A program made the position numbers and the translations under genes. From the NCBI GenBank assembly GCA_937919625.1, contig CALFRK010000113.1, forward strand, positions 1-64,000: DNA of 64,000 bases. Reading direction: 5' to 3'. This document shows positions 1 through 38,696 of this stretch, piece after piece. How positions within the stretch are numbered: the stretch's first letter is position 1; each line of letters begins with the position of its first letter. The DNA comes from an uncultured Ilumatobacter sp. (GTDB taxonomy: Bacteria; Actinomycetota; Acidimicrobiia; Acidimicrobiales; Ilumatobacteraceae). The notes under the pieces were generated by a model that was not told where the DNA came from, searched no databases, and saw nothing but the letters and a program-made list of their open reading frames with translations.

Positions 1-63
1 AGCCGAACCAGCAGCCGAACCAGCAGCCGAACCAGCAGCCGAACCAGCAGCCGAACCAGCAGC
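1..63. repeat. 12-bp tandem repeat (agccgaaccagc) encoding an (AEPA)n linker
   Basis: At least five near-perfect copies of gccgaaccagca at the window start, in frame with the BMP CDS; continues off-window. Confidence 0.9.
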
Positions 64-1075
64 CGAATGCGACCCGATTCAGGCGGCATTCGTCTACGTC
101 GGACCGATCGGCGACGCCGGTTGGACCAAGAAGCACGACGATGGTCGACTCGAACTCGAGGCGGCTCTCGGAGAGTGCGGCGTTACCACCACCTTCCTCG
201 AAAGCGTGCCGGAGGGCGCCGAGTCAGAGGCCGTGTTCGAGCGTCTTGCACGCGACGGTGCCGACGTCATCTTCGGAACCTCGTTTGGCTATATGGATCA
301 GATGCTGGCCGTCGCCGAGCGCTTTCCCGACGTCAAGTTCGAGCACGCCACCGGCTACAAGACCAGCGACAACATGGGCACCTACTTCGGCGCCGCCGAA
401 GAGGCCAGGTATCTGACCGGTATGGCCGCAGCGTCGGTTACCAAGTCGAATCAGATCGGGTATGTCGCTGCCTTCCCGATCCCGGAAGTGCTGCGAGGCA
501 TCAACGCTTTCACCTTGGGCGCCCAGTCGCTCAATCCGGACATCACCGTCGAGGTCGCCTGGACATCGACGTGGTTCGATCCGGTGATCGAAAAGGAGGC
601 CGCCGAGGCTTTGCTCAATGGTGGCGCCGACGTGATCGCCCAGCACCAGGACACACCATCGGCCGGTGAGGCTGCCCAAACCGCTGGTGGCTACTGGGTC
701 GGCTACAACGACGACATGTCGCGCTTCGCCCCCGACGCCTGGCTGACCGCTCCGGTTTGGGATTGGGGTCCGTTCTACATCGCCACCGTCGAAGCAATTC
801 GTGACGGCGCATGGGCATCCGAGCAGTACTACGGCACGATGGCCGACGGTCTCGTCACGATCGCCGACGTCGCCGCCGTAGTTCCCCCAGATGTGCGCGA
901 CCAGATCGACGCCAAGCAGGCCGAGATCATCGCCGGCACGTTCGCTCCGTTCGCCGGGCCGATCAGCGACCAGGACGGCAACGAAAAGGTTGCCGCCGGC
1001 GAAGCTCCCGATCTGGGAGCCCTGCTAGGCATGGACTACTTCGTGGCCGGCGTCATCGGTGGCGCCAGCGGCTGA
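2..1075 (+). CDS. BMP family (PnrA/Bmp-like) ABC transporter substrate-binding lipoprotein, 5' truncated by window edge
   Basis: Frame 2 is open from base 2 (AEPAAEPA...ECDPIQAAFVYVGPIGDAGWTKKHDDG) through the 206..1075 ORF; BMP-type motifs (GPIGDAGWT, TSFGYMDQML, YVAAFPIPEVLRGINAFTLGA); followed by ABC ATPase and two permeases. Confidence 0.9.
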   Translation, partial: AEPAAEPAAEPAAEPAAEPAAECDPIQAAFVYVGPIGDAGWTKKHDDGRLELEAALGECGVTTTFLESVPEGAESEAVFERLARDGADVIFGTSFGYMDQMLAVAERFPDVKFEHATGYKTSDNMGTYFGAAEEARYLTGMAAASVTKSNQIGYVAAFPIPEVLRGINAFTLGAQSLNPDITVEVAWTSTWFDPVIEKEAAEALLNGGADVIAQHQDTPSAGEAAQTAGGYWVGYNDDMSRFAPDAWLTAPVWDWGPFYIATVEAIRDGAWASEQYYGTMADGLVTIADVAAVVPPDVRDQIDAKQAEIIAGTFAPFAGPISDQDGNEKVAAGEAPDLGALLGMDYFVAGVIGGASG

Positions 1076-1076
1076 T

Positions 1077-2630
1077 ATGTCATCTGCCGTCGAGGCTGGT
1101 CCGGGCGCAAGCCCGGACCAGCCGGCAGCTATCGCTGCCATCAACGTCACCAAACGGTTCCCGGGGGTGCTCGCCAACGACGCCGTCGACTTTTGTGTGT
1201 GGCCGGGCGAGGTCCACACGATCCTTGGCGAAAACGGAGCCGGTAAAAGCACCCTGGCAGCGATGCTGTGCGGGCTGTACCGGCCCGACGAAGGCCACAT
1301 CGAACGAAACGGTCTGCCCGTCAGGCTGCGCAGCCCGCGCGACGGGCTGGCCCACGGCATCGGCATGGTGCACCAGCATTTTCGACTGGTCGACCGGTTT
1401 ACTGTCGCCGAAAACGTTGTGCTCGGCGATCCCGACCAAACACGAATCCTCGACTACCGCGAGATCGAGAAGCGGGTCGCCGAGATCGGCGACCAATTCG
1501 GGCTACCGATCGATCCTCGCGCCCTGATCTCCAACCTCACTGTCGGCCAGCGCCAGCGGGTCGAGATTGTCAAAATGCTCTATCGCGGCGCCGACGTATT
1601 GCTGCTCGACGAGCCGACCGCCGTGCTCACCCCACCAGAAGTCGAGGCGCTGTTCACCACCGTGCGCTCGATGACCTCCGAAGGCAAGGCACTCGTCTTT
1701 ATCAGCCACAAGCTGGGTGAGGTGATGGAGATCAGTGATCGTGTCACCGTGATGCGCGCCGGTGCCGTGACCGGCGAAGTCGCCACCAGCGAAACGAACC
1801 AACGCCATCTCGCCGAACTGATGGTCGGCCGCCCTGTCGAGGTCGATACTCGCCGGGGCAGCGCCACCACGACCGATGTCGCCTTCACCGCCACCGGCCT
1901 CACGGTGCTCGACGCCGGACAAACGGTGGTCGACAACGTCGACATCACCGTGCACCGCGGCGAGATCGTCGGCATCGCTGGAGTCGCCGGAAACGGCCAG
2001 CGCCCGCTCGCCCGAGCCCTCGCCGGGGTGATCAAGCCGAACAAGGGTCGCGTCACGATCGGCGACAACGACGTCACCGGCAAGGGCCCCAAGGCTGCTC
2101 GCCGGGCCGGGCTCTCATTCGTTCCAGAAGATCGGCTCGGCACTGGCCTCGTGCCCGGTCTCAGCCTGACCGACAACATGCTTCTGACCCGCAAGCGCGG
2201 GTTTTTTGTCGACCGAAAATCGGCCAGAGCAGAGATCGCCGCCTCGATCGACGCCTACGAGATCAAGACTCCGGGCACCGAGGCCGAGGCCCGAAACCTT
2301 TCGGGTGGCAACTCCCAGAAGGTGCTGCTGGCTCGCGAGCTGGCCGGTCTCGGTGAGTCCGGCGGGCCGCAGGCGATCATCGTCTCCAGCCCGACTCGTG
2401 GTCTCGATATCGGCGCCGCCGAGTTCGTGCGCGGGCTCTTGCACGAGGCCCGCCAACGAGGCGCCGCCGTGTTGATCATCAGCGAGGACCTCGAAGAGGT
2501 GCGCAGCCTGAGCGACCGTATGGCGGTGTTGTACCGCGGCCGTATCGCGCTCGAGGGTCGCACCGATGAGTTGCCCTTCGAATCGATCGGTCTTGCGATG
2601 GCCGGCGTCGCCGAGGAGGAAACGGCATGA
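1077..2630 (+). CDS. Simple sugar/nucleoside ABC transporter ATP-binding protein (two ATPase domains)
   Basis: ORF 1059..2630, likely start ATG 1077 just after BMP stop; Walker A GENGAGKST, signature LTVGQRQRVEI, second signature NLSGGNSQKVLLAREL. Confidence 0.93.
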   Translation: MSSAVEAGPGASPDQPAAIAAINVTKRFPGVLANDAVDFCVWPGEVHTILGENGAGKSTLAAMLCGLYRPDEGHIERNGLPVRLRSPRDGLAHGIGMVHQHFRLVDRFTVAENVVLGDPDQTRILDYREIEKRVAEIGDQFGLPIDPRALISNLTVGQRQRVEIVKMLYRGADVLLLDEPTAVLTPPEVEALFTTVRSMTSEGKALVFISHKLGEVMEISDRVTVMRAGAVTGEVATSETNQRHLAELMVGRPVEVDTRRGSATTTDVAFTATGLTVLDAGQTVVDNVDITVHRGEIVGIAGVAGNGQRPLARALAGVIKPNKGRVTIGDNDVTGKGPKAARRAGLSFVPEDRLGTGLVPGLSLTDNMLLTRKRGFFVDRKSARAEIAASIDAYEIKTPGTEAEARNLSGGNSQKVLLARELAGLGESGGPQAIIVSSPTRGLDIGAAEFVRGLLHEARQRGAAVLIISEDLEEVRSLSDRMAVLYRGRIALEGRTDELPFESIGLAMAGVAEEETA

Positions 2631-3733
2631 TCCCATTCCGATTCAGACTCGAACGCCGACTCGAACGCCACTGGTGGCAGTCCGTGCTGACCCCGCTGCT
2701 GTCGATCCTCGCTGCCTTCGCGGCCGGGGCGATCTTCCTGTTGATCAAGGGTTTCGATCCGATCACCGTCTACCGCGAGCTGTTCAAAGCCAGCTTCACC
2801 AGCAAATTCGGCATCACTGACAGCCTGACGATCGCCGTCCCGCTGATCCTTACCGGACTCGCTGCAGCGGTCGTATTCCGCATGAACATCTTCAACATCG
2901 GCGCCGAGGGCCAGCTGTATCTCGGTGCGATCTTTGGATCTTGGGCCGGCTTGGCTCTAACCGGAAACCTTCCAACTGTTCTGGGGGTCGCCGTGGTGCT
3001 GGTCGCCGGCGCCGTGGGTGGCGCACTGTGGGCAGCTCCGGCAGCCGTGTTCAAGGCCTACTTCGGCACGAGCGAAATCATCACCACGCTGATGCTCACC
3101 TTTATCGCCCTGTTCCTGATGAGATATTTGATCTTCGGTTCGCACTCGTACTGGCGCGACAACGAGGCCGCCAACTTTCCGCAGGGCAAGAAGATCCCGA
3201 GTTCCGCTCGGTTCGAATTGTGGAGCGATACCCGACTGCATTGGGGCCTGGTCGTGGCGATCGCGATCGCCGTGCTGGTCTGGGTGATCATCCGGTTCAC
3301 ATCGCTCGGCTACGACATGAATGTGGTCGGCTCGTCCGACGCCGCGGCCCGTTACTCCGGTATTCCAGTGCGCCGCACGGTGATCATGGCGATCCTGATC
3401 TCCGGTGCGCTCGGTGGGCTCGCCGGCGCCACCGAAGTGGCCGGCAGGGCATACGCCCTCGACCCCAACGGACTCGAACTCGGGCTCGGCTTCACGGGCA
3501 TCGTCGTGGCGGCGCTCGCCAGGTACAACCCCTTCGCGATCATTCTTGTCGCCACCTTCCTTGGTGGTTTGCGCAACGCAGGTGTGGCGTTGCAGGGCCT
3601 TCCCGGCGAGCGTGTCCCGGTCGAGGTCAGTCTGATGTTGCAGGGGGCGATTCTGCTGTTCGCGATCGGTGGCGAGATCTTCACACACCATCGATTGTCG
3701 GTCAGCCGGGTTGCCGAGGCGGTAGCAACATGA
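2627..3733 (+). CDS. ABC transporter permease (nucleoside/BMP type, YufP-like)
   Basis: ATGA overlap with upstream ATPase; hydrophobic; FNIGAEGQLYLGAIFGSW motif typical of the family. Confidence 0.92.
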   Translation: MIPFRFRLERRLERHWWQSVLTPLLSILAAFAAGAIFLLIKGFDPITVYRELFKASFTSKFGITDSLTIAVPLILTGLAAAVVFRMNIFNIGAEGQLYLGAIFGSWAGLALTGNLPTVLGVAVVLVAGAVGGALWAAPAAVFKAYFGTSEIITTLMLTFIALFLMRYLIFGSHSYWRDNEAANFPQGKKIPSSARFELWSDTRLHWGLVVAIAIAVLVWVIIRFTSLGYDMNVVGSSDAAARYSGIPVRRTVIMAILISGALGGLAGATEVAGRAYALDPNGLELGLGFTGIVVAALARYNPFAIILVATFLGGLRNAGVALQGLPGERVPVEVSLMLQGAILLFAIGGEIFTHHRLSVSRVAEAVAT

Positions 3734-4670
3734 ACGACGCCGTCTTCGTGCTAACCCTGGCCGCCGCGGTCGGTGCGGCCGTACCGATCGCCCTGGCCGC
3801 CCTCGGCGAGTTGCTGGCCGAGACGTCAGGCGTCTTGAACCTTGGTGTCGAAGGCATGATGCTGATCGGTGCCGTGATGGCCTTCCAAGTGGGCGACGCC
3901 ACTGGCTCACTGTGGCTGGCGCTGCTGGTTGGAAGTCTTGCCGGCGCCTTGTTCTCGTCGATCCATGCCTTCTTGTGCGTCACACTGCGCGCCAACCAGA
4001 TCGTGTCCGGCCTAGCACTGGTGATCTTTGGTACCGGACTGTCGACATTCATCGGCAAGTCGATCGAAGGCAAACCGCTCGACACCGACTTCACCCCGAT
4101 CCGATGGGGCTTTCTGGCCGACATCCCAGTCTTGGGGCCCCTGCTCTTCGATCAGGACCCGATGGTCTACGCCACGATCGCGATCGCGATCGCGATCACC
4201 TTGTACCTCAACCGAACCAAGGCCGGCTTGGCGGTGCGGGCAGTCGGCGAGTCACCCGGTACCGCCGACACGATGGGCGTCGCCGTCGCGGCCACCCGAT
4301 ACGTGCATGTCATGTTGGGTGGGTTGCTGGCCGGTATGGCCGGCGCCTATCTCGTGCTCGGGCAGGTCCCGTCGTGGAGTCAGGACGGCACAACGGCCGG
4401 AATCGGCTGGATCGCCCTTGCACTCGTGGTGTTCGCATCGTGGCGTCCGCTGCGGGTGTTGCTCGGAGCCTTCCTGTTTGGCTTTGCCCGGCGCGCCAAC
4501 TTCTGGCTGCAAGGCGAGGATTGGGCTCCCGACATCCCAGCCGAGTTCCTCAGCATGTTGCCTTACCTACTCACGATCGCCGTGCTGGTGGTGTGGGGCA
4601 GTCGCGACCTGCGGCGCCGAGTTGGGTCCCCGAGCGCGCTCGGCGTGCCATACGACCGGGCCGAGCGCTG

Positions 4671-4671
<1 letters not shown>
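3730..4671 (+). CDS. ABC transporter permease (nucleoside/BMP type, YufQ-like)
   Basis: Within ORF 2941..4671; ATGA start overlap at 3730; GVLNLGVEGMMLIGAV motif. Confidence 0.92.
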
Positions 4672-6133
<1,462 letters not shown>

Positions 6134-6137
<4 letters not shown>

Positions 6138-8398
6138 GCGTCGGATCATCATCGATCCGGATCGATGCCCACGCCAAAACCACCGGCGAAGCTCAGTATC
6201 CGGGTGACCGCGCCCCCGCCCATGCACTGGCGGCCCGGGTCGTATTCACCGATCAGCCGCACGCCCGACTGCTCCGGCTCGATGTGGCGAAAGCCGAACA
6301 GATGCCGGGCGTGATCGCCGTGTTTACCGGGCGTGACGTACCGGTCAACGAGTACGGCCTGACCGAGTTCGACCAACCGGTATTCGTCTCGATCGAACAC
6401 ACCGGTCGCACCAAGGTCGAGAGCGACATCAGCCGATGGGAGGCCGACCATCTGGCGCTCGTCGTAGCCGATACTGACGAACAGGCAACGGCTGCTGCCG
6501 CAATGATCGAGGCCGATTGGGCGCAGTTGCCGATTGTGGCCGACATCGATCAGGCGCTGGCACCAAACGCCTCGCTGGTGCATCCCGAACTCAAACTCGA
6601 CAGCAACATCTACCACACATACAAGATCCGCAAGGGCTCGATCGATGCGGCATGGGCCGACGCCGCTGTGATCATCGAAACAACGTATGAGCTGCCGTAT
6701 CAGGAGCACGCCTACCTCCAGCCCGAGGCGGCGGTCAGCTATATCGACGAAGAGGGCCGCGTCACGCTCGAGGTCGCCGGCCAGTGGGCGCACGAAGACC
6801 AAGAGCAGATCGCCCATGCCCTCGATCTGCCCGTCGATCAGGTCAGGGTGATCTATCCGGCGATCGGCGGCGCATTCGGCGGGCGTGAAGACATGTCGCT
6901 GCAGATCGTGCTGGGGTTGGCTGCGCTACGGCTGGCCGAGCGCGGCGAACACCGGCCGATTGCCAGCCGCTGGTCGCGCGAAGAGTCGATCGTGGGTCAC
7001 CACAAGCGGCATCGAGGCCGGATCCACGCCAAGTGGGGCGCCGACTCCAACGGCAAGCTGGTCGCGGTGCAAAGCGAGGCCTGGCTCGATGCCGGCGCCT
7101 ACAACTACACCACAAACAAGGTGCTCGGAAACTGCCACCTCGGACAGGCAGGGCCCTACGAGGTTCCAAACGCCCAGATCGACAGCCATGCCGTCTACAC
7201 CAATTCTGTTCCGGGTGGGGCGTTTCGTGGTTTTGGAGGTCCGCAAGCTGCGTTTGCCGCCGAGTCACAAATGAACAAGTTGGCCGAGGCGCTCGGCATC
7301 GACCCTGTCGAAATCCGTCTTCGCAACGCTGTTCATGACGGCAGCATCGGTATCACCCAAACGGTGATGCCGGCTGGGGTGACAATGCTGCAGGTGATCG
7401 AGCGCTGCGCCAGCGAGTCACAGTTTCACCAACCGCTAACGCCCGCCGAGCCGTTCTCGCCGTTCGCCTCGCTGCCGCCTGTTGAGGGTGATCTGCTACG
7501 TGGGCGTGGGTTCGCCTGTTCGTTCAAGAATGTCGGGTTCTCATTCGGGTTTCCCGAGCGTTGCGAGGCAACGATCGTGCTGCACGGCAAACCCGACTCG
7601 CCGACTGCCGAGCGAGGCGAGCTGTTCCATGCCGGCGCCGATGTCGGCCAGGGGGCCCACACGGCGTTCCTGCAGATGGCCGCCGAGGCGACAGGTCTCG
7701 CGTTCGAGAACATGACGGGTGGATTCTCCGACACGTCGTCGTCGGGCGATTCAGGTTCTGCATCGGCGTCGCGCCTCACCTTCATGTCGGGCAACTCGAT
7801 CCTTGGCGCGGCTGAAGCGGCCGACAAGGCGTGGCGCAACGGCGACCGGCCGGCGGTCGGTCATTTCCGCTATGTGCCGCCCCCCACCGAAGCGCTCGAC
7901 CCCGAAACCGGCGCCGGTGCCCCCAACTTCAGCTACGGCTACGTGGCCCAGACTGTCGAACTCACCGTCGACCGGGCAACCGGCCACATCGTGGTCGACC
8001 GCGTCGTCAGCACGCACGACGTCGGACGCGCGATCAACCCGGCCAATGTCATCGGCCAGATCGAGGGCGCAGTCGTGCAAGCTCACGGCTATGCCCTCAG
8101 CGAGCGCCTACAGGTAGAGAACGGGCGGGTTCTCAACCCGCGCTTCAGCACCTATCTGATCCCCGGAATCGGCGACGTTCCGACCCGGATTGAGAGCGTC
8201 GTGCTCGAACTCGCTGACCCAAACGGCCCCTGGGGGGCGCGCGGTATGGCCGAAATGCCATTCATGACGTACGCCCCGGCCGTGGTGGCCGCTCTGCACG
8301 ACGCGACCGGCGTGTGGTTCGACTCATTCCCGCTCACGCCCGACCGTGTCACAGCGGTCTTGGCGCAAGCGGCCGCTCCGTCGTCGTCTGGTCGCTGA
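6134..8398 (+). CDS. Xanthine/aldehyde dehydrogenase-family molybdopterin-binding subunit
   Basis: ATGA overlap; GGAFGGREDMSLQ, GGAFRGFGGPQ, VGQGAHTAFLQMAAE, GPWGARGMAEMPF motifs. Confidence 0.93.
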
Positions 8399-35199: not shown

Positions 35200-38100
35200 T
35201 TACTCGTCGGCGTACCTGATGAAGAATTCGGCGCAGATCCTGCCATGGTGCTGATCGGCGCAGGATGCGTCGAATTCTTCGGAGTGTCGCTCGACGGTGG
35301 CTCCAAGCTGCTCGTCGATCTGATTGCTAGAGCGCCCCGAGAACGCCGCTTCGAACGCGTTCTGGGCCTCGTCCAGATTGAGCACCTCGCCGACCGGGGT
35401 GGTCGCAACAACGATCCGTCCGTTGATGATGTCATCGATCGCCCGGTCGACCGTCGCCGCGATCTCGGCGGTCATGCCGCCCCCCTGGGTCGAGTAGTCG
35501 AAGGCATGCTCGGCCAGCCCGACTGAGGCGATCTCGCCGACCACGTCGTCGCCAAGCATCCGCTTGATCAACTGGTACGCGGCGTTGTCACCGCGCTTGA
35601 TCACCGATGTCAGCACATAGTCGCGTTGCACCGGGTTGACGTCGAACCATTGGTCGTTGTCGACACCGATCGCCCAGAGCCGTCTCCCGGTCGATTCGGA
35701 TTGGTCGACCACGGCATCGAATAGGCCCCATCCAGAGAACCCGGAAGCGTGGAACACCACATCGGCATTGCGCTGGTACAACGACACCGCTCGGTCGTAC
35801 CCAAGTTGCGGGTCGGCGAAGGCGTTGACGAGACCGCCGACCTCTGCCATGAACTGCTGCTCGATGAAGGTCGCCAGCACCTCGACGTCAGGATCGGCCC
35901 AGACGGCACCAGCCTCGAATCCGGCCCGGAACTCCTCGATGTTGGGGATCGCCGTTGCGCCGACGAATCCGACCACTCCCGTCTCTGACTTCAACGCCGC
36001 AGCTACTCCAGCCAGGAAGGCGCCTTGTTCGTTGGCAAACGAGACGGATACCGCATTGGGCGCATCGAAGAAGCCGTCGACCAGGCCGAACCTGATGTCG
36101 GGGAAGTCGCCGAGCACCTCCGGCGAAGCGAATATCAGTGTCCCGTCGCTGATGATGACATCGGGGCTGGACTCCGCCAGTTTTGGCAGTTCCGCGCCAG
36201 GATCGATAACGGACGGGGCATCGATCAGATTCATGTTGATGTCATTCGCCGCACGGTCGAGACCGGCTCCGATGTTGGCGTTCCAACCGTCGTCGCTGCG
36301 GTCACCAAAGAAGGCGACCGTCGGGCCGGGTCCGCTGTCGAACACACCAGCCGCGTAGGCGCCCGTAGCCCCTATGACGAGCACCACGACAGCCGCAACG
36401 GCCCACAGCCGGCGACGCGCCGAACGCTCGGCCCTGTCGCCCCTCATCGATCGGGTTTGCTCTTCTTCGAGCGTGTTTTCGTGGCGCACCGTCGACAGAT
36501 CGAGAAACTGACGCTCGTCGAGCGTGAGTTGCATCGTGGCGGTTGCAGCCCACGTCGTGTACGCCTCGAGCCGGGCGCCGCGCAACAAGAAGTCGTGGTT
36601 GAAGTCGGCGTCGCTCCACTCGGCCATCGCCGCCGCAAGCGAAACATGGCGCTTGACATCCTCGCGAGCGGCTTCGATCCAGTCGCTCAGGCGTGTCCAG
36701 TTGGTGAGCAGCGCCTCGTGAGCGACTTCGACGGTCGGCGAATCTGTGACCACATCGCGGTCGAGGATGAGGAGGCGGTGGGCGGAGTAAGAATCGATCA
36801 CCGTTTGCAGAGCGAACACATCGACGTCGAGCGACAGGATCTCCGACGCCGGAACACGGCGGCGCGTCCACTCGTCGGTGTCGGCGATGCTGACGAGACG
36901 TAGGAACAGCTGTCGGGCCGTGGCCTGCTGCTCGTCGTCGAGTTGTGCGAACAAGTCGTCGGCGCGGCGGCTCAGCGCACCACTCACGCCGTCCATGGCG
37001 TGATATGCGCCAAGGCTCAGCGTGTTGTCGATGCGGCGATCGAACAGCTCGGTCAAGGCGTACTGGAACAATGGAAGTGCACCGGGGCGACCGATCACAT
37101 CCGTCAACAGGGTGGCGATCAGGGCCGGCTCAAGCATCACGCCGGCACGCTCGGCTGGTTGCAGTGCTGCTGATTCAAGCTCGTTCGAGGTCAGCGGGAC
37201 GACGTTGATGATTCCGTCCCCGAGCCGGGCCCCGAACTCGGGATAGGCGAGCGGACGGTCGTAGAAGTCAGCTCGCAGAGTGATCACGACCTTGACCCGG
37301 CCCCGCGAGTCATCGATGGCGTTCAACAAGCCGGTCAGGAAATCGCCGCAATCAGCCTCATGGGTGACCTGTGTGAACAGCTCCTCGAACTGATCGATCA
37401 CCAGCACGAGGTTCGACGTATCGGTCGGCAGCACCCGCAGTGCGGCCCGCAGCATGCCGGCTTCACGATCGGCGAGTTGGTCGGACAGGCTGTCGGGGGC
37501 GTCCAGAGACGAGCGCAACAGCGCCGCCTCGAGTTCGGCAAACGGTCGCGAGCCAGGGACCATCTGGGCGATCAACCAGCCGTCGGAGCCTTCGATTGCC
37601 CCCTTGCGCAGCGCCGGAATCAGGCCCGCTCGGACAATGCTCGACTTGCCAGAACCGCTCGGCCCGACCAGGGCAAGCAGTGCGGTGTCTGTGGCGAGAC
37701 GTCGCACCGCCTCTGCGACGATCCGGTCGCGTCCGAAGAAGTCGCCGTCGTCGTCCTCGAGGAACGAACGCAGGCCCTTGAACGGATTCGGCGCGCCGTC
37801 CGGGATCGGCTCGTCGTTGGAATGGCTACCCCTGTGACGGGCTTGCAGCCGCGAGTCGTGAAGCAGGATCTGTTCCTCGAGCCGCCGTAGCTCGGGTGAC
37901 GGATCGACGCCGAGCTCTTCCACCAAATGTAGCCGGTAGCGCCTGAACACGGCCAGGGAGTCGATCTGGCGTCCGGACCGGTACAACGCCAACATCAACT
38001 GGCTGACCAGACGCTCGCGTGTCGGGTAGGCGCGATGCAACGACTCGAGTTCGCTGATCAGCTCGCCGGAACGTCCGAGCTTCAGGTCGGCCTCGATCCG

Positions 38101-38577
38101 ATCCTCAACGGCGAGCGAGCGCAATTCTTCCAGACGAACGATCTCGGCCTGGGCGAAGTCTTCGTAGGAAAACTCCTCGAACGCCGGCCCCCGCCAGAGG
38201 GCGAGCCCGTCGCTCAGCAGCTGAGAGGCCCGCGCCGGATCGTTGCTCATCAACACCCGACCGGCTGCCACCATCGTTTCAAACCTGCTGGCGTCGAGAT
38301 CGTCCGGCCCGATCAGCAGCGAGTACCCGTGATCACGTGTGACCAGAATGTCGCGCTCACCCAGCGCCGCCCGCAATCTCGAGATGTACACCCACAACGT
38401 CTTCTCCCTGCCGGCGGCATCGTCACCCCACAGCTCGTCAAGCAGGCGGTCGGTCGTGACGACTCGATTGGCGTTGAGGATCAGCAGGGCCATCAGAGAC
38501 TGAAGCTTTCGACCGCCGATGGCGATTGCCTGCCCGTCGTCGACGACCTGCAACGGACCCAGGATCCCAAACTCCAC
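35200..38577 (-). CDS. SARP-type regulator (wHTH + BTAD) fused to STAND NTPase, TM helix and C-terminal BMP-family ligand-binding domain
   Basis: GTG start at 38577 (MEFGILGPLQVVDDGQAIAIGGRKLQSLMALLILNANRVV); BTAD VFRRYRLHLVEELGVDPSPELRRLEEQIL; NPFKGLRSFLEDDDGDFFGRDRIV, LVGPSGSGKSSIVRAGL; TM RRRLWAVAAVVVLVIGATGAYAAGVF; BMP TVAFFGDRSDDGWNANIGAGLDRA...GFVGATAIPNIEEFRAGFEAGA. Confidence 0.88.
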   Translation of the reverse strand: MEFGILGPLQVVDDGQAIAIGGRKLQSLMALLILNANRVVTTDRLLDELWGDDAAGREKTLWVYISRLRAALGERDILVTRDHGYSLLIGPDDLDASRFETMVAAGRVLMSNDPARASQLLSDGLALWRGPAFEEFSYEDFAQAEIVRLEELRSLAVEDRIEADLKLGRSGELISELESLHRAYPTRERLVSQLMLALYRSGRQIDSLAVFRRYRLHLVEELGVDPSPELRRLEEQILLHDSRLQARHRGSHSNDEPIPDGAPNPFKGLRSFLEDDDGDFFGRDRIVAEAVRRLATDTALLALVGPSGSGKSSIVRAGLIPALRKGAIEGSDGWLIAQMVPGSRPFAELEAALLRSSLDAPDSLSDQLADREAGMLRAALRVLPTDTSNLVLVIDQFEELFTQVTHEADCGDFLTGLLNAIDDSRGRVKVVITLRADFYDRPLAYPEFGARLGDGIINVVPLTSNELESAALQPAERAGVMLEPALIATLLTDVIGRPGALPLFQYALTELFDRRIDNTLSLGAYHAMDGVSGALSRRADDLFAQLDDEQQATARQLFLRLVSIADTDEWTRRRVPASEILSLDVDVFALQTVIDSYSAHRLLILDRDVVTDSPTVEVAHEALLTNWTRLSDWIEAAREDVKRHVSLAAAMAEWSDADFNHDFLLRGARLEAYTTWAATATMQLTLDERQFLDLSTVRHENTLEEEQTRSMRGDRAERSARRRLWAVAAVVVLVIGATGAYAAGVFDSGPGPTVAFFGDRSDDGWNANIGAGLDRAANDINMNLIDAPSVIDPGAELPKLAESSPDVIISDGTLIFASPEVLGDFPDIRFGLVDGFFDAPNAVSVSFANEQGAFLAGVAAALKSETGVVGFVGATAIPNIEEFRAGFEAGAVWADPDVEVLATFIEQQFMAEVGGLVNAFADPQLGYDRAVSLYQRNADVVFHASGFSGWGLFDAVVDQSESTGRRLWAIGVDNDQWFDVNPVQRDYVLTSVIKRGDNAAYQLIKRMLGDDVVGEIASVGLAEHAFDYSTQGGGMTAEIAATVDRAIDDIINGRIVVATTPVGEVLNLDEAQNAFEAAFSGRSSNQIDEQLGATVERHSEEFDASCADQHHGRICAEFFIRYADE

Positions 38578-38696
38578 GGCTTTCCCCTCTCGACCCCTCG
38601 GCGATCCTAGACCGACCGCGCTGCGCCCCGTTCGAGACCAGTTGACCAGGTCCACCTTTCATCCTCCTTACATCCCGCACGCTGGGGATACGCCCG

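Follow-up and report, generated by a model that had tools for sequence, protein, structure and literature searches.

A candidate transmembrane SARP-STAND regulator with a fused BMP/PnrA-type outer domain in an uncultured Ilumatobacter sp.

We analyzed a stretch of 64,000 nucleotides from an uncultured Ilumatobacter sp. (hereafter, the window), in which a minus-strand frame (38577-35200) translates into a 1125-aa protein with a GTG start at 38577 and a stop at 35200 (Table 1). An earlier note on this DNA had described one uninterrupted frame of 1.1 kaa, leaving out the strand, and translation bore this out. An alternative in-frame GTG at 38655 would yield a longer product of 1151 aa; we preferred the start at 38577 because it is where the winged helix-turn-helix (wHTH) domain begins and because the additional segment from 38655 overlaps a candidate SARP-type operator. 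Pfam and hydropathy placed, from N- to C-terminus, a wHTH, a BTAD, an nSTAND1 domain, one transmembrane (TM) helix and a BMP/PnrA domain, confirming the architecture that the earlier note had read, and all four Pfam domains exceeded their gathering scores. Among solved structures (phmmer against the PDB), the N-terminus matched AfsR and EmbR chains, as in a SARP-type wHTH-BTAD head, and the C-terminus matched TmpC/PnrA, Lbp, BmpD and BmpA. The central domain, in which Walker A (GPSGSGKS) and Walker B (LVLVIDQFEEL) are both intact, reads as a member of the nSTAND1 group. The tail of about 60 aa that follows the BMP domain is absent as a conserved feature in most homologues, although the match to one of them (genome G597) covers it. 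Scans for sigma-70-like promoters and for terminators near the regulator gene gave no match.

Table 1. Features of the regulator locus, in window coordinates.
Feature	Position	Strand	Evidence
Whole regulator gene, 1125 aa, GTG start 38577	35200..38577	-	Translation; full-length conservation in other genomes
OmpR-type winged helix, residues 24-87	38317..38508	-	Pfam PF00486 Trans_reg_C, 53.4 bits; PDB matches to AfsR and EmbR
BTAD, residues 94-238	37864..38298	-	Pfam PF03704, 157.4 bits
nSTAND1 NTPase, residues 265-658	36604..37785	-	Pfam PF20703, 367.4 bits
Walker A GPSGSGKS, residues 305-312	37642..37665	-	Kept in nearly all region-spanning fused homologues
Long helix from STAND domain to membrane helix, residues 686-734	36376..36522	-	Full-length AlphaFold2, pLDDT mostly 83-94 to residue 710, then lower
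Single TM helix, residues 727-745, positive side inside	36343..36399	-	Mean hydropathy 2.16; net flank charge +5 before, -3 after
BMP/PnrA-type ligand-binding domain, about residues 756-1058	35404..36312	-	Pfam PF02608, AlphaFold2, Foldseek, pocket table
C-terminal tail, residues 1065-1125	35203..35385	-	Low-confidence alpha/beta (AlphaFold2)
Candidate SARP-type operator GTAAGGA-GGAT-GAAAGGT, two heptamers, 11-bp period	38654..38671	-	77-94 bp upstream of GTG
Partner gene, secreted HExxH...E putative metallopeptidase, 222 aa	38697..39365	-	Conserved neighbour; alignment-invariant residues

A search for the same architecture elsewhere, which the earlier note had proposed, covered genomes of the same class and the same phylum and recovered 34 fused homologues from other Actinomycetota genomes. 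At least 22 of the 396 class genomes carried a full-length or near-full-length fused regulator. While a scan of genome contigs with a single BMP-region sequence returned no relative, an alignment-based scan did find relatives. The best homologues shared 60% identity over residues 1-1075 (G470), 56% (G459) and 52% over residues 2-1124 (G597). Genomes of the window's own family seldom have the fused regulator: of 150 drawn, G017 and G064 carry it, and G036 has a copy cut by the contig end. Named carriers are Acidimicrobiales bacterium OFTM10 (locus L101), an Acidimicrobiia MAG (L102) and a MAG labelled Geodermatophilaceae (L106). No plasmid record spanned 80% of the regulator, the best among the matches listed reaching ~44%. 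The literature that we searched, a part of the whole, gave no account of this architecture, and this conserved family is apparently undescribed.

We assessed topology by hydropathy and the positive-inside rule. One hydrophobic helix lies shortly before the BMP domain in 33 of the 34 fused proteins; in nearly all 34 the flank on the STAND side is net positive, often with an ARRRLWG motif, and that on the BMP side is neutral or negative. For such flanks the positive-inside rule predicts that the BMP domain lies outside the membrane, which would give a ToxR/CadC-like order of cytosolic N-terminal wHTH, one TM helix and outer C-terminal sensor. This agrees with the one-protein, C-out layout claimed earlier; hydropathy and charge did not place both ends in the cytosol. 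The sole fused homologue with no detectable membrane helix (L067:1501-4518) may be a cytosolic variant or a wrongly read join. A full-length AlphaFold model (pLDDT 81.5, pTM 0.51) was confident for the end domains and unreliable for inter-domain placement.

We then modeled residues 720-1125 with AlphaFold (pLDDT 85.7). Foldseek matched this model, at E about 1e-24, to adenosine-bound PnrA of S. pneumoniae, inosine-bound PnrA of T. pallidum, guanosine-bound Lbp of C. thermocellum and adenosine-bound BmpD. The Pfam Bmp match (PF02608) spans residues 756-1024 at 132 bits, and together with phmmer these searches assigned the C-terminus to BMP by both sequence family and fold, as the earlier note had read it. 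A transporter component of this kind would be a free lipoprotein encoded with ABC ATPase and permease genes; here, the BMP domain is fused and no ABC genes adjoin 35200-38577.

Taking the roles of BMP pocket residues from PMC7093131 and PMC13325309, the latter for the ribose contacts, we located pocket residues W765, N766, D834, F883, F920, D973 and K994 in the window protein. These include the ribose-contact Asp/Asp/Lys (D834, D973, K994) and the second stacking aromatic (F920). Across the 34 fused domains the ribose site is largely kept (D108 in 26, D238 in 29, K260 in 29), and 33 have an aromatic residue at position 186. In free BMPs the base-contact loop is near-invariant (D27 in 109, F36 in 116 and N37 in 115 of 118). 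By an alignment that is uncertain in this loop, Asp27 (TmpC numbering) is lost in all 34 fused proteins and the Phe36 position holds Trp in 9, Phe in 6 and mostly aliphatic residues otherwise; with the same uncertainty, the Phe36 equivalent in the window protein is Trp, so that its loop departs from that of free BMPs. With its ribose site retained and its base-contact loop diverged, the domain probably binds a nucleoside-like ligand, not necessarily a purine, with altered base preference. Of the purine nucleoside that the earlier note had named as ligand, the nucleoside part is thus favoured by the kept ribose site, and the purine part is weakened by the changed base-reading loop.

The same divergence of the loop could instead mean that the outer BMP domain docks a protein in place of a free ligand, be it a transporter binding protein, a small exported neighbour or a dimer partner, and in many fused loci the gene just upstream does code for a small protein that is exported or has a TM segment. 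However, most fused proteins retain the ribose-contact Asp/Asp/Lys and the second aromatic, and the window protein has the full pocket set, making docking unlikely in our judgement.

Directly upstream of the regulator, in tandem, lies a gene for an exported-looking protein bearing HELGHAWEH. Alignment of its homologues revealed invariant H106, E107, H110 and E147 and two invariant Cys, giving the HExxH plus downstream Glu ligand of gluzincins. No curated peptidase family passed for this protein (best Pfam, M78, at 13.3 bits vs a cut-off of 22; no NCBIfam match). Of 27 BMP-fused loci, 9 have a peptidase homologue near the regulator, in tandem in the window and L036 and divergently in L101, L185, L187, L188, L189, L190 and L197. 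A search for the peptidase family by itself found it in 45 of the 396 class genomes. Of 51 testable loci outside the BMP set, 29 place it next to a SARP or SARP-nSTAND gene (26 of them divergently), where the chance rate of such adjacency is an assumed 3 percent, and 19 of 22 such regulators have a TM helix after nSTAND. At the genome level, peptidase and chassis overlap in 34 cases vs 6.9 expected (hypergeometric p about 4e-23, uncorrected for phylogeny).

Loci that lack the peptidase often have another exported neighbour, such as a divergent BD-FAE-type esterase (L182 and L183) or an SGL-type lipoprotein (L037). At L191, L192, L193, L194 and L199, BMP-fused regulators without the peptidase are directly preceded, in tandem, by small proteins with one membrane segment, which matched no Pfam family where checked. 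Longer proteins with the HExxH domain (about 500-680 aa; L275, L278, L279, L282, L289) lie mostly away from SARP genes.

A secreted HExxH protein as the most frequent conserved neighbour also fits a membrane-held latent factor, in which cleavage near the membrane, perhaps triggered by the BMP domain or the secreted peptidase, would free the SARP-STAND part; membrane-bound factors activated by proteolysis form an established class (PMC7593790). Yet the peptidase accompanies only 9 of the 27 BMP-fused loci, no conserved intramembrane protease lies nearby, a secreted enzyme could reach only the outer part of the protein, and the long helix and STAND domain suggest allosteric signalling. We regard release by cleavage as improbable, a little more so than docking.

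We also examined the DNA that the SARP head of the regulator may bind. SARP operators consist of heptamers with 4-bp spacers (PMC5930380), and the candidate operator of this form upstream of the regulator is the only exact motif match in the genome. Among 292 loci, the exact pattern GWAAGGW-N4-GWAAGGW occurred at three distinct sites, each 67-100 bp upstream of a BMP-fused regulator, the window's motif thus also preceding two other such genes. In 31 regulator-peptidase gaps we counted 123 heptamer pairs at 11 bp vs 8.5 in shuffled sequence, with 10 and 12 bp near background. After near-copies were removed, 26 of 30 gaps still had an 11-bp pair, vs 5.5 expected from resampling that preserves base neighbours; of 93 control regions taken upstream of free BMP genes, 18 had one. 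Upstream of BMP-fused genes there were 49 pairs at 11 bp vs 12.5 shuffled, and family-wide the heptamer enrichment was confined to 11 bp and its multiples. The repeats have the spacing of SARP direct-repeat operators and may serve as such. The window's motif had no match in the closest homologue, L036, and about half of BMP-fused loci showed no 11-bp repeats within 250 bp. Because the peptidase gene is in tandem and upstream of the operator, the placement in the window suggests autoregulation, which fits better than control of the peptidase. Neither the partner gene nor the operator figured in the earlier note.

We also traced the origin of the fusion. Of the 64 free proteins in a 100-domain BMP tree, 63 lay across a 95-supported branch from the fused ones; the exception was the window's own free BMP (1-1075, L001), which sits on an extremely long branch and is of unsure placement. 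In the nSTAND tree the BMP-bearing proteins formed one group (96 support) that also took in L057, which has no detectable BMP. As the BMP-bearing proteins group together in the nSTAND tree and their BMP domains lie apart from free BMPs in the BMP tree, a single old fusion event is plausible. The earlier note had derived the receptor domain from the transporter BMP at 1-1075. We rejected this origin, as the fused BMPs are their own old lineage in the BMP tree and the 1-1075 protein is very divergent and belongs to a transporter operon. On the plus strand, at positions 1-8398, genes for that BMP protein and an ABC ATPase, along with two permease-like genes, precede frames like the FAD, 2Fe-2S and molybdopterin subunits of xanthine dehydrogenase. 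A family model was applied to the BMP and the other frames were assigned by how they read; this is probably an operon for purine uptake and oxidation, ~27 kb from the regulator.

Relatives on the same chassis carry other C-termini, which the earlier note did not mention. SARP-nSTAND1 proteins at L064, L074 and L082 end in SBP_bac_1, another transporter-type sensor (the count is limited to these three, in which Pfam separates SBP_bac_1 from WD40 proteins), and L066 has a beta-propeller. The BMP-fused regulator L038:5232-9647 (minus strand) has an extra PD40-like propeller after its BMP domain. Elsewhere an N-terminal protein kinase is paired with a C-terminal BMP domain (L040:6121-8922 and L041:2159-4936), a further regulator type with this kind of sensor. 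We think it fairly probable that the window protein represents one branch of a transmembrane SARP-STAND receptor class, so far undescribed, in Acidimicrobiia and related Actinomycetota; the wHTH-BTAD-nSTAND1-TM chassis of this class would bear interchangeable sensors outside the membrane (SBP_bac_1, beta-propellers, or BMP whose ligand loop has diversified) and work with a local secreted metallopeptidase of a new family through shared 11-bp-spaced operators.

Among the proteins of prokaryotic conflict systems, nSTAND NTPases are prominent, so that the BMP domain might sense an invader-derived molecule and the SARP part launch a defence. We consider an immunity role very doubtful: the protein has no effector domain, its SARP head and SARP-type operators indicate a transcriptional regulator, its conservation is long and vertical, and its neighbours are secreted hydrolases and not nucleases. 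Because the same fused order recurs in many independent assemblies and the BMP-bearing proteins fall in one chassis clade (96 support), the regulator is a real gene, and a joining of two adjacent genes by assembly or annotation error, a risk raised in the earlier note, is next to impossible.

We accordingly give reasonable, if guarded, credence to a one-protein, ligand-gated transmembrane receptor and SARP transcription activator that controls its own locus. Computation shows how its domains are ordered and folded, its topology signature and conservation, the genes around it and the operator-like repeats, and from these we infer the ligand class, the direction of signalling, oligomerisation, activation in place of repression, and the target genes. 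In such a receptor the outer BMP domain would bind a small, probably nucleoside-like ligand, and closure of its two lobes would push or twist, via the membrane helix and the long cytosolic helix, on nSTAND1. The nSTAND1 ATPase would then switch nucleotide state and probably oligomerise, allowing the SARP (wHTH-BTAD) heads to bind local 11-bp-spaced heptamer repeats cooperatively. Local promoters would be activated as a result: the regulator's own and, in many relatives, that of a divergent neighbour encoding a secreted protein, putatively a metallopeptidase or an esterase.

SARP activators and STAND ATPases count among the major regulators, and the signals that they respond to are mostly unknown. 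The present regulator offers a covalently attached sensor of a fold with known ligand chemistry, an explicit membrane step, and a candidate operator and partner gene; signal, switch and output are therefore testable in one protein. It also suggests repeated recruitment of transport receptors to serve as sensors on one STAND chassis.

Like AfsR and other large and medium Streptomyces SARPs, the window protein has a wHTH-BTAD head followed by a nucleotide-binding switch, and heptamer operators with 4-bp spacers. The described C-termini of AfsR-type SARPs are, however, NB-ARC, TPR or LAL-type, whereas here nSTAND1, a TM helix and an outer BMP domain follow; a review of the group (PMC10972967) sets out small, medium, large and LAL types with no mention of transmembrane members. 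ToxR, CadC and VtrA share the N-terminal cytosolic wHTH, single TM helix and outer C-terminal sensor, but are without BTAD or STAND ATPase, and their sensor folds are unrelated to BMP. PnrA (TmpC), BmpA/BmpD and Lbp resemble the outer domain in fold and in ribose-site residues, yet they are free lipoproteins of ABC transporters, whereas the window BMP is tethered to a regulator and has a changed base-reading loop. The Foldseek matches also included Med (PDB 2hqb), a BMP fold in a protein named as the comK transcriptional activator, which stands alone without wHTH, BTAD or STAND. Finally, LuxP-LuxQ and XylFII-LytS, both in the Foldseek list, likewise use a periplasmic-binding-protein fold as signal receptor, although in those pairs the binding protein and the histidine kinase on which it acts are separate chains.
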